64,000 nucleotides of DNA. Source: Cystobacter fuscus. Lineage in GTDB: Bacteria; Myxococcota; Myxococcia; Myxococcales; Myxococcaceae. Below the pieces are notes generated by a model that saw nothing but the letters and a program-made list of their open reading frames with translations, did no database searches and was not told where the DNA came from. Below are positions 17,531-20,588 of this stretch, in pieces. The stretch spans positions 5,456,001 to 5,520,000 of the forward strand of contig NZ_CP022098.1 in NCBI RefSeq assembly GCF_002305875.1, read 5' to 3'. A program made the position numbers and the translations under genes. The stretch's first letter is position 1; the number at the start of each line of letters is the position of its first letter.

Positions 17531-18394
17531 TCACCCGCGCGCCAGCGGCAGCTCCGCGGCGAGTCCTTCCAGCAGCACGCTCTGGAATCGGGCCTGGCGG
17601 GAGGCCGCGCTGAAGTAATGCGAGAAGGAGGCGAAGGTGAGCACCGGGCCGTCGGCGAACATCAGGCTCTCACCCGAGAACGCGCCAAACGTCTCCTGGA
17701 GCGCGGGAATCAGCTCGCGCAGCCGTCCCTTCAACTCCTCCGACAGGGCCTGGCCCGGGGCCAGGAATTGCGCGTCCCACGCCTTGCCGAAGAAGTACAG
17801 CAGCACCGGCGTGCCCTCGGGCCTGTTCACCACGAACGAGTCCCAGTGCACCGCGGGAGGCGCGTCCGACACCTTCCACGAGTAGAAATCGAAGGGGCTC
17901 TTCCAGATCGGCCGCGCGAAGGGGGCGGAGTCGATGGGCTCGGGCCCGTAGCCGTACTTGTACTCGGGCGTGCGCAGCCCGGGGACCTTCTTCCCGATGA
18001 GCTTCCACTGGCTGACCAGCGGCACCAGGTGGCCCACCGGCGAGCACACGCCCGGAGTCCCGATGACCTTCTTGTACCCGCGCAGCACGTGATCGAGCGC
18101 GCTGGTGACGAGCCCCCGGGCGAGCAGCGAGTTCTCTCCCCCCAGGGCCTTCAGGGTTTGATCCGAGATCTCCACCACCCGATTGAGGATGATGGGCTGG
18201 GCGGACGTGGAGCCCCCGGCGGCGGGCTGCTGGTGGTGGAACAGCCCGTCCTCGTCGCTGAACGTGGCGCCACTGGCGCGCAGGAAGTCACTGACCTTCG
18301 AGCGGGAGATGCGCCAGGGAAGGCTCGGGCTCGCCTCCAGTGAACGGGAAATCTGCTCTTCGACGGCATCGTCCGAGATGACAAGAATCTCCAC
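17531..18394 (-). CDS. Unknown protein, possibly a divergent ATP-grasp relative, in the HExxH peptide cluster
   Basis: 287 residues beginning MEILVISDDAVEEQISRSLE. The N-terminal half has the look of the pre-ATP-grasp region of peptide-modifying ATP-grasps: an early alpha-beta strand, ILNRVVEIS (69-77), then a helix, GTPGVCSPVGHLVPLVSQWKL and PGLRTPEYKY. A canonical nucleotide-binding core was not found; the C-terminal part has VNRPEGTPVLLYFFGKAWDA and GESLMFADGPVLTFASF, which could match the last ATP-grasp strands. The assignment is structural intuition, not a motif match. Its place behind the HExxH and PDZ genes suggests peptide modification or substrate binding. No signal peptide. Confidence 0.6.
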   Translation of the reverse strand: MEILVISDDAVEEQISRSLEASPSLPWRISRSKVSDFLRASGATFSDEDGLFHHQQPAAGGSTSAQPIILNRVVEISDQTLKALGGENSLLARGLVTSALDHVLRGYKKVIGTPGVCSPVGHLVPLVSQWKLIGKKVPGLRTPEYKYGYGPEPIDSAPFARPIWKSPFDFYSWKVSDAPPAVHWDSFVVNRPEGTPVLLYFFGKAWDAQFLAPGQALSEELKGRLRELIPALQETFGAFSGESLMFADGPVLTFASFSHYFSAASRQARFQSVLLEGLAAELPLARG

Positions 18395-18466
18395 AAAGGC
18401 TCCAGCAGGCTGGCGGGAACGTGCCCGCGCGGTGGCTCCTGGCCAGCTCCCGATCTTCCCGGGTGC

Positions 18467-18915
18467 TTAGCGCATCGTCCCCGGAGGGGGCGGCGGGGCG
18501 GGGGGCTCGGGGTGGGGGGCAGGTCGAGCCCGGGGAAGTCCGAGGGGCCGGCCCGGAAGGTGACGACCTGGCCGTTGCGCAGCACCTCGAAGTCGAACAC
18601 CGAGCCGGCGCTCTCCCGCCAGACGAACAGGGCATCGGAGGGCCTGCTGATGACGCGGCCATCGATGCGCCTCACCACATCCCCCGCCTGGAACGGCCAG
18701 AACCCCGCCGGCGTCGACTGGGTGGCGACCACGCCTTGCGTCCTGGACTCGAGCACCAGCGAGGCCGAGCCCGCCTGGATCTGGGCCCGGTCCGTCTGAG
18801 CGGTCATTCGGGTGTTCATCTGATGGCCTCCTTGGGGCTCACCGGACGGCTTCGCGGGGCCGCTCGGAGCGACCGCGAGCACGAAAAAACCCACGAACAG
18901 CGCGGAGGTCGTCAC
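18467..18915 (-). CDS. Exported PDZ-domain protein, apparently frameshifted near its 3' end
   Basis: Starts with a GTG at 18915 whose last bases overlap the stop of the HExxH gene (GTGA), so the two are translationally coupled. A signal-like segment (ALFVGFFVLAVAPSGPA) leads to a single PDZ-like domain: FWPFQAGDVVRRIDGR, SRPSDALFVWRE, FDFEVLRNGQVVTF. As sequenced the frame runs on to 18151, overlapping the next gene by about 240 bp with Arg/Pro/Ser-rich nonsense. Adding one base in the G/C run at ~18483-18522 would instead give a Pro-rich end and a TAA at 18467-18469, 149 residues, no overlap. I annotate that end. Role is probably binding of a C-terminal tail or peptide; unknown. Confidence 0.65.
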
Positions 18916-20114
18916 GGGGCGGCTCCCTTCTGGACGGGCGGTTGGTATTGCGCGCCACCCGCCGGCGCCACGGCCACGTTCTCCGGGCGGGACTCGGGCA
19001 GGGGCGAGAACCTCCGGCGGATGATCTGCTGCATCTGATCCATCGCATGCAGCGTGCGCGGATCCACGTTCGAGAAGGGCTTCACGTAGTCGCTCAGCTT
19101 GCCCGGCATCAGGAAGCCCGAGGCGTAGCGATTGCGCCGCTTCACGGCCAGGCGCTGCTGCTCGGCGGAGAGCTCCCCGCGCTCCATCCGCTTGAGCGTG
19201 TAGTGGAGGATGGCGAAATAGACGAACACCGCGTGCAGGAAGGGAAGCACCCGGATGGGGCGCATCGACCAGGGCGACACGGGGCGCGCATCACCGTCCG
19301 ACTCGCCTCCGACGATCTGGAACGGATGCTCCAGATACTCGTACGTCGACAGCAGGTTGTGCACCGACTCGTGGATCAAGTCATCCATCAAGCTCTCGTG
19401 CGTGTAGTCCGGACTGTGCACGTTGAGCAGGCGGATCGCGCCAATCTCGTCGGAGACCTGCTCGGAGGCGGGCGGCGCCCCCTCGCGCTTGCGCACGCAT
19501 GCGACGCGCGTGTAGTTGCGGATGATGCGCGCGAAGATGGGCGCGGTGGCCTCGATCTCGGCGAAGGCCGCGGAAAGCTTGCTCAGCACCCGTTCCTTCT
19601 CCTCCTCGGTGAAGGGCACGAAGTCGCCAAAGAACACGGGGCTCGTCATGTCCGAGCGCTTGCAGAAGGGGCTCGACAGGTCCACCGTCACCGAACCACC
19701 CAGCAGTGGCGCCACATAGGCGTTGCCCGGAATGCCCCCGGCGTGACTCGCCTTGGAGAACAGGGGATTCCAACGCTCACGGGCCTCGCCCGGGTACTGG
19801 GCGGACGTCTCGAGGGCGCTCTCCCCGATGCACAGATCGATCAGGCCCCGGAGCTCCGGAGTCTTCCCCGCCCACTGCTGACGGAACATCTCCGAGAAGA
19901 CCGCTGGCGACAGGAAGAAGGCGTACCGCTCCCGCGCGCTCAACGCCTCATAGGCGGCGCTCGCCGCCCGCGCTGTCTCCGGAGAGGACAGCCGCGCGAG
20001 CCACAGGAGATCCTCGAACTGGAACTTGAGCTTCTGGACGAAGTGCTCGACCTGATTGTCAATGAGGGGTGGGCAGGAACCACCAGCGGTCAATGAATAG
20101 ATGATCTGCAACAC
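18912..20114 (-). CDS. HExxH-type putative alpha-ketoglutarate-dependent peptide beta-hydroxylase
   Basis: Family known first as the HEXXH motif domain (TIGR04267) of RiPP clusters and more recently as aKG-HExxH peptide beta-hydroxylases, iron enzymes hydroxylating precursor side chains. The key segment is DLIHESVHNLL (His248, Glu249, His252 counted from the GTG at 20114), followed by the family's SPWSMRPIRVLPFLHA block, whose His may be a further ligand. The longer frame to 20159 is unlikely: its first codons lie in the 3' arm of an intrinsic terminator. GTG at 20114 gives 400 residues, but no good ribosome-binding site is visible and TTG codons at 20111 and 20093 are alternatives. It follows the Q-rich peptide gene and is coupled to the PDZ gene. 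Confidence 0.8.
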   Translation of the reverse strand: MLQIIYSLTAGGSCPPLIDNQVEHFVQKLKFQFEDLLWLARLSSPETARAASAAYEALSARERYAFFLSPAVFSEMFRQQWAGKTPELRGLIDLCIGESALETSAQYPGEARERWNPLFSKASHAGGIPGNAYVAPLLGGSVTVDLSSPFCKRSDMTSPVFFGDFVPFTEEEKERVLSKLSAAFAEIEATAPIFARIIRNYTRVACVRKREGAPPASEQVSDEIGAIRLLNVHSPDYTHESLMDDLIHESVHNLLSTYEYLEHPFQIVGGESDGDARPVSPWSMRPIRVLPFLHAVFVYFAILHYTLKRMERGELSAEQQRLAVKRRNRYASGFLMPGKLSDYVKPFSNVDPRTLHAMDQMQQIIRRRFSPLPESRPENVAVAPAGGAQYQPPVQKGAAP

Positions 20115-20139
20115 AGGAGGGCACCCCGCGGTTGGAGTG

Positions 20140-20176
20140 AAAAAAAAGGCCTCGGGCATTCGGGCCCGGGGCCTTT
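20140..20176 (-). terminator. Intrinsic terminator between peptide gene and HExxH gene
   Basis: On the minus strand a 13-bp stem (AAAGGCCCCGGGC / GCCCGAGGCCTTT, one C-A mismatch) with a 6-nt loop is followed by eight T. It lies 14 bp after the stop of the peptide gene and before the modification genes, so it should make peptide mRNA exceed enzyme mRNA. Confidence 0.85.
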
Positions 20177-20189
20177 CCCTACAGCGGAA

Positions 20190-20462
20190 TCAGACCGCGA
20201 AGCCGCTGTCGCTGGGGGCGAACTGGACGCCCGCGCTGTCGCTCTGGTTGCGGTTCTGCTGCTGCTGCTGCTGCTGCTGCTGCTGGCTGCTCTTCGCCGC
20301 GATGAGCTCGTTGAAACCCTCGATCTCCAACGCGAACGAAGCCTCGGCCTGCTCGGCGCTCAGAGTCAGGGTCTTGTCGCTGTCGACGGACGCGTCGACG
20401 GCGATGGGACCAGCGGCAACAGCGAGCGAAGCGATGGCAGCGGCGCAGTTGAGCTTCTTCAT
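20190..20462 (-). CDS. 90-residue Q-rich peptide, candidate RiPP precursor
   Basis: Start ATG at 20462 with a TCCCTT-complement (AAGGGA) ribosome-binding site 7 bases before it. Residues 1-24 (MKKLNCAAAIASLAVAAGPI...) resemble a Sec signal or hydrophobic leader. Residues ~28-58 are acidic (LTLSAEQAEASFALEIEGFN), then ten consecutive Gln (60-69) and a polar C-terminus, QSDSAGVQFAPSDSGFAV, with two SDS-G units. Its own strong promoter, the terminator right behind it, and the following HExxH gene fit a leader-Q linker-core precursor whose Asp or Asn residues could be hydroxylated. It could instead be an unrelated small secreted protein. No homologue is recognised. Confidence 0.7.
   Translation of the reverse strand: MKKLNCAAAIASLAVAAGPIAVDASVDSDKTLTLSAEQAEASFALEIEGFNELIAAKSSQQQQQQQQQQNRNQSDSAGVQFAPSDSGFAV
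20256..20285 (-). repeat. (CAG)10 microsatellite encoding Gln10
   Basis: Ten perfect CTG triplets on the plus strand (CAG in the sense strand of the peptide gene). Slippage would change the Gln tract without shifting frame. Confidence 0.9.
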
Positions 20463-20559
20463 GAGGCACTCCCTTGTCGTTGGTAGAGGGCGCTACGAAA
20501 CCGCCTGGCGCGTCTGCTGTTCAGGGGGCTGCGTCACAGCCGCGCAAACGGTGAGAAAA

Positions 20560-20588
20560 GTTATAGAAACAAAACTACTGCCAGTCAA
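20560..20588 (-). promoter_or_regulatory. Sigma-70-type promoter of the Q-rich peptide gene
   Basis: On the minus strand TTGACT (20588-20583), a 17-bp spacer and TATAAC (20565-20560). This is near-consensus and strikingly AT-rich for the genome. Transcription should start near 20553, giving about 90 nt of leader before the ATG at 20462. Confidence 0.8.

Follow-up and report, generated by a model that had tools for sequence, protein, structure and literature searches.

A candidate peptide-modification cluster of Cystobacter fuscus pairs a poly-glutamine peptide with a HExxH protein and has PDZ-like and permease genes in common with a second poly-glutamine peptide

Here we describe a gene unit in a stretch of 64,000 nucleotides (the window; coordinates count from its first letter) of the 12.35 Mb contig NZ_CP022098.1 (positions 5,456,001 to 5,520,000, forward strand) of Cystobacter fuscus, whose relatives show it to be a myxobacterium. 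The unit is genuine; it encodes pep1, a 90-residue precursor-like peptide with ten consecutive glutamines, together with a HExxH protein, a PDZ-like protein, P287 (a protein of 287 residues) and an ADOP-type permease, a duplicated ATP-binding cassette (ABC) protein, and is most likely a cluster of the kind that makes ribosomally synthesized and post-translationally modified peptides (RiPPs). What lies beyond known systems is this gene set, together with a PDZ/ADOP module common to two poly-glutamine (poly-Gln) peptides, pep1 and a second one named pep2, that go with different enzymes.

Organization of the gene unit

The features are as follows.

20190..20462, minus strand: pep1, precursor-like peptide of 90 aa, with signal-like N-terminus, ten-Gln run and conserved C-terminus AG[VI]QFAPSD[SD]GFAV
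20144..20177, minus strand: terminator-like hairpin with T-run between the peptide and enzyme genes (site scan and folding)
18912..20114, minus strand: HExxH protein, 400 aa from GTG 20114, putative divergent relative of alpha-ketoglutarate HExxH peptide beta-hydroxylases
18520..18915, minus strand: PDZ-like protein, conserved part of 132 residues with hydrophobic N-terminus; the open reading frame (ORF) continues off-frame to 18151
17531..18394, minus strand: P287, candidate ATP-grasp-like protein of 287 residues, restricted to genomes that have pep1 and a close HExxH homologue
15017..17470, minus strand: ADOP duplicated ABC permease, MacB-like (TIGR03434, 974 bits against a cut-off of 622; gene linkage)
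20801..21544, plus strand: divergent ABC ATPase, DarD/LolD/MacB-like, possible motor of ADOP; start 20801 picked by eye in the ORF 20603-21544

On the minus strand the order is pep1, hairpin, HExxH, PDZ-like, P287 and ADOP, and the ABC ATPase gene diverges on the plus strand. The original prediction, made from the sequence of the window, had listed a Gln10 peptide, a HExxH protein, a coupled PDZ protein, a 287-residue protein and a permease 60 bases behind it, and all were recovered in their places. The HExxH ORF as called runs from 20159 to 18912 and contains HESVH and SPWSMRPIRVLPFLHA. The called start falls within the hairpin; G074, a genome of the same genus, has ATG at the position of the window's GTG 20114, so that translation more likely begins at 20114 (400 aa). 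The HExxH stop and the start of the PDZ ORF (18915) overlap by four bases (GTGA). The hairpin folds with -24.6 kcal/mol, and 3 of 200 shuffled sequences fold at least as well (z -2.60); the number of terminator-like sites in the region, 3 against 2.5 expected, is not significant. The hairpin possibly keeps the precursor level above that of the enzymes.

Conservation of pep1, the HExxH gene and P287

We searched 142 genomes of the order (145 for the HExxH protein) and 195 of the phylum. Gene order is the same for pep1, HExxH, PDZ and P287 in the genome of the window (G000), in G074 and in M. qinghaiensis (G105), which belongs to another genus; in G074 the ADOP and ABC genes are also present and in the same order. 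The DNA pattern G[VI]QFAPSD located pep1 in these 3 of the 142 genomes. HExxH has some match in 4 of 145 genomes, three of these being close homologues with 64% identity or more, and P287 was matched in 3/142 (order) and 3/195 (phylum). The three genes thus occur in the same three genomes, always adjacent, as the original prediction had expected for the peptide and the HExxH gene (3/3 homologues). Identity is 90% in G074 and 64-67% in M. qinghaiensis for HExxH, and 95% and 55-57% for P287. Between G000 and G074, NG86 non-synonymous and synonymous divergence (dN, dS) is 0.095 and 0.144 for the peptide, 0.046 and 0.151 for HExxH, and 0.021 and 0.074 for P287.

Compared with M. qinghaiensis, G095 matches both flanks and the PDZ gene without pep1, and retains only the last 20 bases of HExxH and the last 49 bases of P287. 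G118 agrees with G095 over the PDZ gene and the second module described below, and has a short match at the start of pep1. Since G095 and G118 are without all three genes while flanks and PDZ are kept, we consider that pep1, HExxH and P287 were gained or lost together. In ten loci searched by tblastn, no credible remnant of either HExxH or P287 was returned.

The pep1 peptide and its glutamine run

The three pep1 homologues have a common layout: a start MKKLN[CA]A, a hydrophobic stretch, a variable middle, the Gln run, a variable linker and a near-invariant end. The N-terminus is basic and hydrophobic, and signal-like. The Gln run, residues 60-69 in the window, measures 10, 9 and 14 residues across the homologues; outside it the last 13 residues are the best conserved part, with 11/13 invariant. 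We take the ending F-A-V to be a class II PDZ ligand pattern. No Ala follows right after the Gln run, and the first conserved Ala lies in DxAG. Considering a defence system, we ran PADLOC, which gave no match for the four proteins.

The Gln codons of pep1 are all CAG in G000 and G074, and two are CAA in G105. The pattern (CAR)9 occurs at a single locus in the 12.35 Mb G000 genome, within pep1, and in G074 and G105 it is confined to pep1 and pep2. Over the order it was found in 30/142 genomes, and the reversed pattern, used as a control, in 13/142. In the 12 carriers of pep1 or pep2 there are 17 (CAR)9 loci, 14 of them pep1 or pep2 and 3 elsewhere (two of these three were inspected), and the control matched once in these carriers, in G106. 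Thirty poly-Gln loci were inspected, a number that excludes one more match in G115: 10 were pep1 or pep2, 15 lay in ORFs longer than 250 aa, four in short ORFs and one had no ORF. Two of the four short ORFs have a negative coding score, one ends at a contig edge and one is a 76-aa ORF (G121).

A second poly-Gln peptide with a radical SAM partner

In M. qinghaiensis, 3' of P287, there are pep2 (91 aa, 11 Gln), a 684-aa B12 radical S-adenosylmethionine (SAM) protein and then ADOP, and this genome therefore holds both modules in a single cluster. The radical SAM protein was matched in 14/142 genomes (E 1e-40), near full-length in 11 of them with 78-100% identity; the other matches are a relic in G000 (the last 158 residues) and two remote proteins at 28-30%. 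pep2 is present in the same 11 genomes (11/142), in each case just upstream of the radical SAM gene by coordinates. All eleven copies have a run of 10-12 Gln, they end in Ala or Gly, and several Myxococcus copies hold interspersed CAA. BLASTP of pep1 against pep2 found no similarity beyond the Gln run, and hhalign gave a probability of 87 over a single aligned column. The radical SAM partner resembles the TIGR03975 family of B12 radical SAM RiPP C-methyltransferases, for which it scored 107.6 bits against a cut-off of 281.85, and is not filed as a member; it also matched weakly a glutamine C-methyltransferase family (46 of 360 bits), every family match being below its cut-off. That this enzyme may methylate Gln is a guess from these resemblances.

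The PDZ protein was found in 11/142 genomes (broken in G119), every one a carrier of pep1 or pep2; the one of the 12 carriers outside this count is G081, where pep2 lies at a contig end. ADOP copies with at least 69% identity occur in 12 genomes, which are all 12 carriers, by coordinates beside the P287 or the radical SAM gene; these counts are lower bounds, up to seven candidates being scored per genome. The non-carrier ADOPs over the threshold reach 65, 62 and 61% identity. In G074 pep2 and the radical SAM gene lie without PDZ or ADOP within the 18 kb read, and in G000, where other genes take their place, pep2 is missing together with most of the radical SAM gene. We infer from this gene content that pep1, HExxH and P287 form one module and pep2 and the radical SAM gene another, PDZ and ADOP being common parts; 3 genomes carry the first module and 11 the second, and few of these carriers are independent. 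PDZ and permease, predicted as members of the pep1 cluster, are not peculiar to it, as they also go with pep2 and the radical SAM gene.

Separately, we noted that the radical SAM relic of G000 lies at L072 7876-8352 (G000:C1:4897878-4898348), and that the two-module island of M. qinghaiensis with its ADOP (L006 7629-15761) is flanked by genes that look hslV/hslU-like and xerC-like.

The HExxH protein appears closer to the hydroxylase ChlH than to metallopeptidases

Against TIGR04267 (cut-off 40 bits) the HExxH protein scored 36 in the window, 33.9 in G074 and 40.0 for the M. qinghaiensis orthologue; in the genome scan the scores were 38.6, 36.6 and 41.6, respectively. Family matches were found in 33/142 genomes of the order; G000 has five, one of which is the window protein. 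By sequence, the protein would be a divergent relative that works like the alpha-ketoglutarate HExxH beta-hydroxylases of TIGR04267, not a firm member. Six homologues share invariant H248, E249, H252, S280-W282 and H294. A search of PDB sequences with the window protein by itself gave nothing useful; a three-row profile, searched up to E 10, matched ChlH alone (E 3.9e-4), with the HExxH, SPW..RP and LHA motifs aligned. When the HExxH group was compared by HHalign with HExxH proteins from other loci, the probability was 66 and E 5.5e-5 over the HExxH region.

Two structure models, one of the HExxH protein and one of P287, were built; their alignments, drawn from window and L006/L007 proteins, had 3 and 2 rows, and their fold rankings serve as support only. 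With the poor HExxH model (mean pLDDT 43.7), Foldseek placed ChlH chains at ranks 1-4 (E 4e-4 to 5e-3), the next row having E 1.8. A second structural comparison with the same poor model gave Z 10.5 for ChlH, 8.5 for SjiH and about 2 to 3.3 for metallopeptidases; for SjiH, a 2026 structure entry, no naming paper was among the matches listed. The HExxH domain of ChlH/ChlB (PDB 8s5f), the top fold match of this poor model, has the same three motifs as the window protein, at about 13% identity in structural alignments. Profile and fold searches thus suggest a protein that resembles the hydroxylase ChlH more closely than metallopeptidases, in line with the hydroxylase-like role predicted for it; no pep1 homologue lay away from a HExxH gene and no metallopeptidase fold was favoured, the two findings that would have spoken against the original prediction.

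P287

With the P287 model, also poor (mean pLDDT 42.4), the best 50 of 742 Foldseek matches were enzymes whose fold class we take to be ATP-grasp, including MdnC, AMdnB and PsnB, and the best Z against ATP-grasp enzymes was 8.2. hhalign of P287 against the ATP-grasp proteins of its own genome found no match (probability 0.2 and 0.1 on a percent scale), and a PDB profile search returned nothing. In a by-eye comparison with the L135 protein, the catalytic Arg and E-x-N of ATP-grasp enzymes are apparently lost. P287, predicted as ATP-grasp-like, thus looks so by fold search, and the sequence tests are negative.

PDZ-like protein, permease and ATPase

The PDZ ORF encodes 254 aa and is off-frame past about residue 132: compared with G074, the window gene is one C short in a run of C (18498-18520), so that either the gene no longer has the conserved proline-rich tail LPPTPEPP or the assembly contains an error. 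We use the label PDZ-like because the PF13180 score of the protein, 23.7 bits (E 6.2e-5), is under the gathering cut-off of 27 bits; its G118 homologue scored 23.5. The ABC ATPase reached 254 of 375 bits for DarD, and an ABC gene directly adjoins an ADOP gene in L128 too. Past ADOP lies a gene for a CHAP/NlpC-like protein (14134-14916).

Other HExxH loci

A second HExxH cluster of G000 (about 5.77 Mb, L044 6718-14709) encodes a 60-aa precursor-like peptide ending HSSYHQNNHSSS and, by eye, a radical SAM-like protein, three HExxH proteins and a C39-type ABC exporter, with an ADOP-like gene alongside. The fourth genome with a HExxH match, G076 (L009 6678-14973), has two paralogues at 26%, a 119-aa signal-like precursor with CSSCHPG and a Pro-rich end, and metallo-beta-lactamase-fold, DUF5819, HTTM and DUF6311 proteins. 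In G099 (L047 10035-11024) two HExxH proteins and an exporter are encoded close to three precursor-like peptides sharing CG[SG]TY[VI]SCxSTYTAP, and in G055 (L049 10015-10221) a His/Gly/Ser-rich precursor-like peptide occurs with HExxH, a radical SAM-like protein, a C39-type exporter and ADOP, as judged by eye. The C39-type exporter, HlyD and SPASM labels are presumptive, assigned by eye.

Discussion

Gene linkage, conservation and family resemblance are observed in the data presented here; from them we infer that the HExxH protein and pep1 are enzyme and substrate, that Gln is the site, that P287 is a partner, and the whole export route. In the account that we favour, and to which we give about even chances, a RiPP-type cluster would beta-hydroxylate the Gln run of pep1 through the HExxH protein, with P287 as partner and export by Sec and PDZ/ADOP. 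pep1 would be synthesized as a precursor whose leader is signal-like. Using Fe(II) and alpha-ketoglutarate, the HExxH protein would beta-hydroxylate several of the ten Gln and possibly residues of the tail in the cytoplasm, while P287, with an ATP-grasp fold and without the usual catalytic residues by eye, would bind the precursor and perhaps block early export. pep1 would then be exported via Sec, the exported PDZ protein would grip its hydrophobic end, GFAV, and the ADOP permease and the divergent ATPase would together push the peptide outward.

Hydroxylation at Gln is our best guess. Excerpts of a preprint (PMC12636437) describe the HEXXH enzymes PflC and PosC as hydroxylating 5 and 4 consecutive Gln, for PosC at the beta carbon by nuclear magnetic resonance, so that the Gln run, and not just the tail, is the likely target here. 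The core of residues ~70-90 proposed by the original prediction is, with this precedent, too narrow, and Gln 60-69 are the leading candidate. The same excerpts report hydroxylation of Asn and Val in variants, and cleavage at the Ala of ARMD, which variants with Ala or Gly favour. Cleavage of pep1 at the Ala of DxAG is possible but unsupported.

As excerpted in PMC12636437, the pfl/pos systems of Pseudomonas likewise have a HExxH gene next to one for a precursor about 94 residues long (PosA numbering), whose Gln run is near-C-terminal, and transporters nearby; they have an NHLP leader, an ARMD end, a GNAT protein and an MNIO-nitroreductase fusion. Compared by description, the present unit differs in its signal-like leader, longer Gln run, QFAPSDxGFAV tail, PDZ protein, P287 and ADOP, and no MNIO or nitroreductase family matched among the scanned neighbour proteins. 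Bufferin-type MNIO RiPPs also have modified precursors with Sec signal peptides but differ in enzyme family, Cys motifs and copper binding (excerpts of PMC12452194); MNIO RiPP precursors with Sec signals are thus on record. A MacB-like permease and a LolD-like ATPase likewise stand beside a RiPP-type precursor in the darobactin system (DarB/DarD and MacB), whereas here the permease is an ADOP double permease and no HlyD-like membrane-fusion gene was seen adjacent. Among the open-licence papers searched, the matches listed held none on poly-Gln RiPP-type myxobacterial peptides, and a search for a PDZ domain in RiPP clusters matched no paper. The earlier statement that no described system has this gene set may hold for the gene set among those matches; the key chemistry has precedent.

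Several points weigh against the account that we favour. The three carriers of pep1 represent two lineages only. The N-terminus of pep1 is moderately hydropathic (the best 12-mer reaches 2.2 in G000 and 1.8 in G105), in the window the Gln run consists of CAG codons throughout, which slippage can produce, and pep1 has neither an ARMD motif nor a significant leader family in NCBIfam. The HExxH proteins of the window and G074 are under the curated TIGR04267 cut-off, and both structure models are poor. The PDZ gene is frameshifted in the window, and with dN 0.073 and dS 0.071 constraint is not evident in the G000-G074 pair. A second ADOP of G081, at 71% identity and without an adjoining poly-Gln peptide, weakens ADOP as a specific part. 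No ATPase match was found in 18 kb around the M. qinghaiensis cluster, and no leader-removing protease was recognized among the window proteins scanned.

It could be argued that the HExxH protein hydroxylates the tail, at Asp, Phe, Gln or Pro in DxAG[VI]QFAPSD[SD]GFAV, and that poly-Gln is a flexible spacer. The 11/13 invariant residues at the end of pep1 fit this explanation, as does the range of residues, His, Asp, Phe, Gln and Pro, that family members hydroxylate according to excerpts of PMC13060819. However, pep2 keeps 10-12 Gln in 11/11 genomes beside a different tail, so that the Gln run is not peculiar to one gene, and (CAR)9 is otherwise uncommon; we regard a tail target as unlikely, though a serious competitor. 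The tail also holds Asp and Ser, which an active ATP-grasp ligase could join in graspetide-like ester or amide cross-links, and MdnC, AMdnB and PsnB are among the best 50 of 742 Foldseek matches of P287. Such an activity of P287 seems quite improbable, given that the Arg and E-x-N positions are not kept, by eye, and that hhalign and the PDB profile search were negative.

HExxH is also the zincin signature, and PflC is proteolytic when the leader is absent (excerpts of PMC12636437), which could point to a metallopeptidase that trims a secreted peptide; against it stand the SPW..RP and LHA motifs aligned with ChlH and the Z of about 2 to 3.3 for metallopeptidases against 10.5 for ChlH, albeit from a poor model, and we consider it very improbable. 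Least probable of all, pep1 would be an ordinary low-complexity protein that is secreted, contains a CAG microsatellite and has unrelated neighbours: the peptide is small, its run is pure CAG in G000 and G074, and (CAR)9 runs occur also in long proteins of other genomes, but pep1 shares its three genomes with HExxH and P287, all three genes are jointly absent in G095 and G118, and CAA is interspersed in G105 and several Myxococcus copies.

A wider and more tentative view, to which we give somewhat less than even credence, is that of a modular class of exported poly-Gln peptides, in which PDZ and ADOP would serve two precursor families that differ in leader and tail, and two unrelated enzyme families would have been recruited to act on one and the same homopolymer. 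Gln runs would be hydroxylated via HExxH and P287 and perhaps C-methylated via the B12 radical SAM enzyme, of which G000 has a relic only, and M. qinghaiensis would make both products side by side. Homopolymeric Gln is known for aggregation, yet here it is apparently built and exported with dedicated modifying enzymes. If true, two enzyme classes with a common export would constitute a natural experiment on side-chain modification of poly-Gln, and would provide tools for hydroxylating or methylating Gln in peptides, as well as a testable case of a PDZ protein carrying a RiPP-type peptide.

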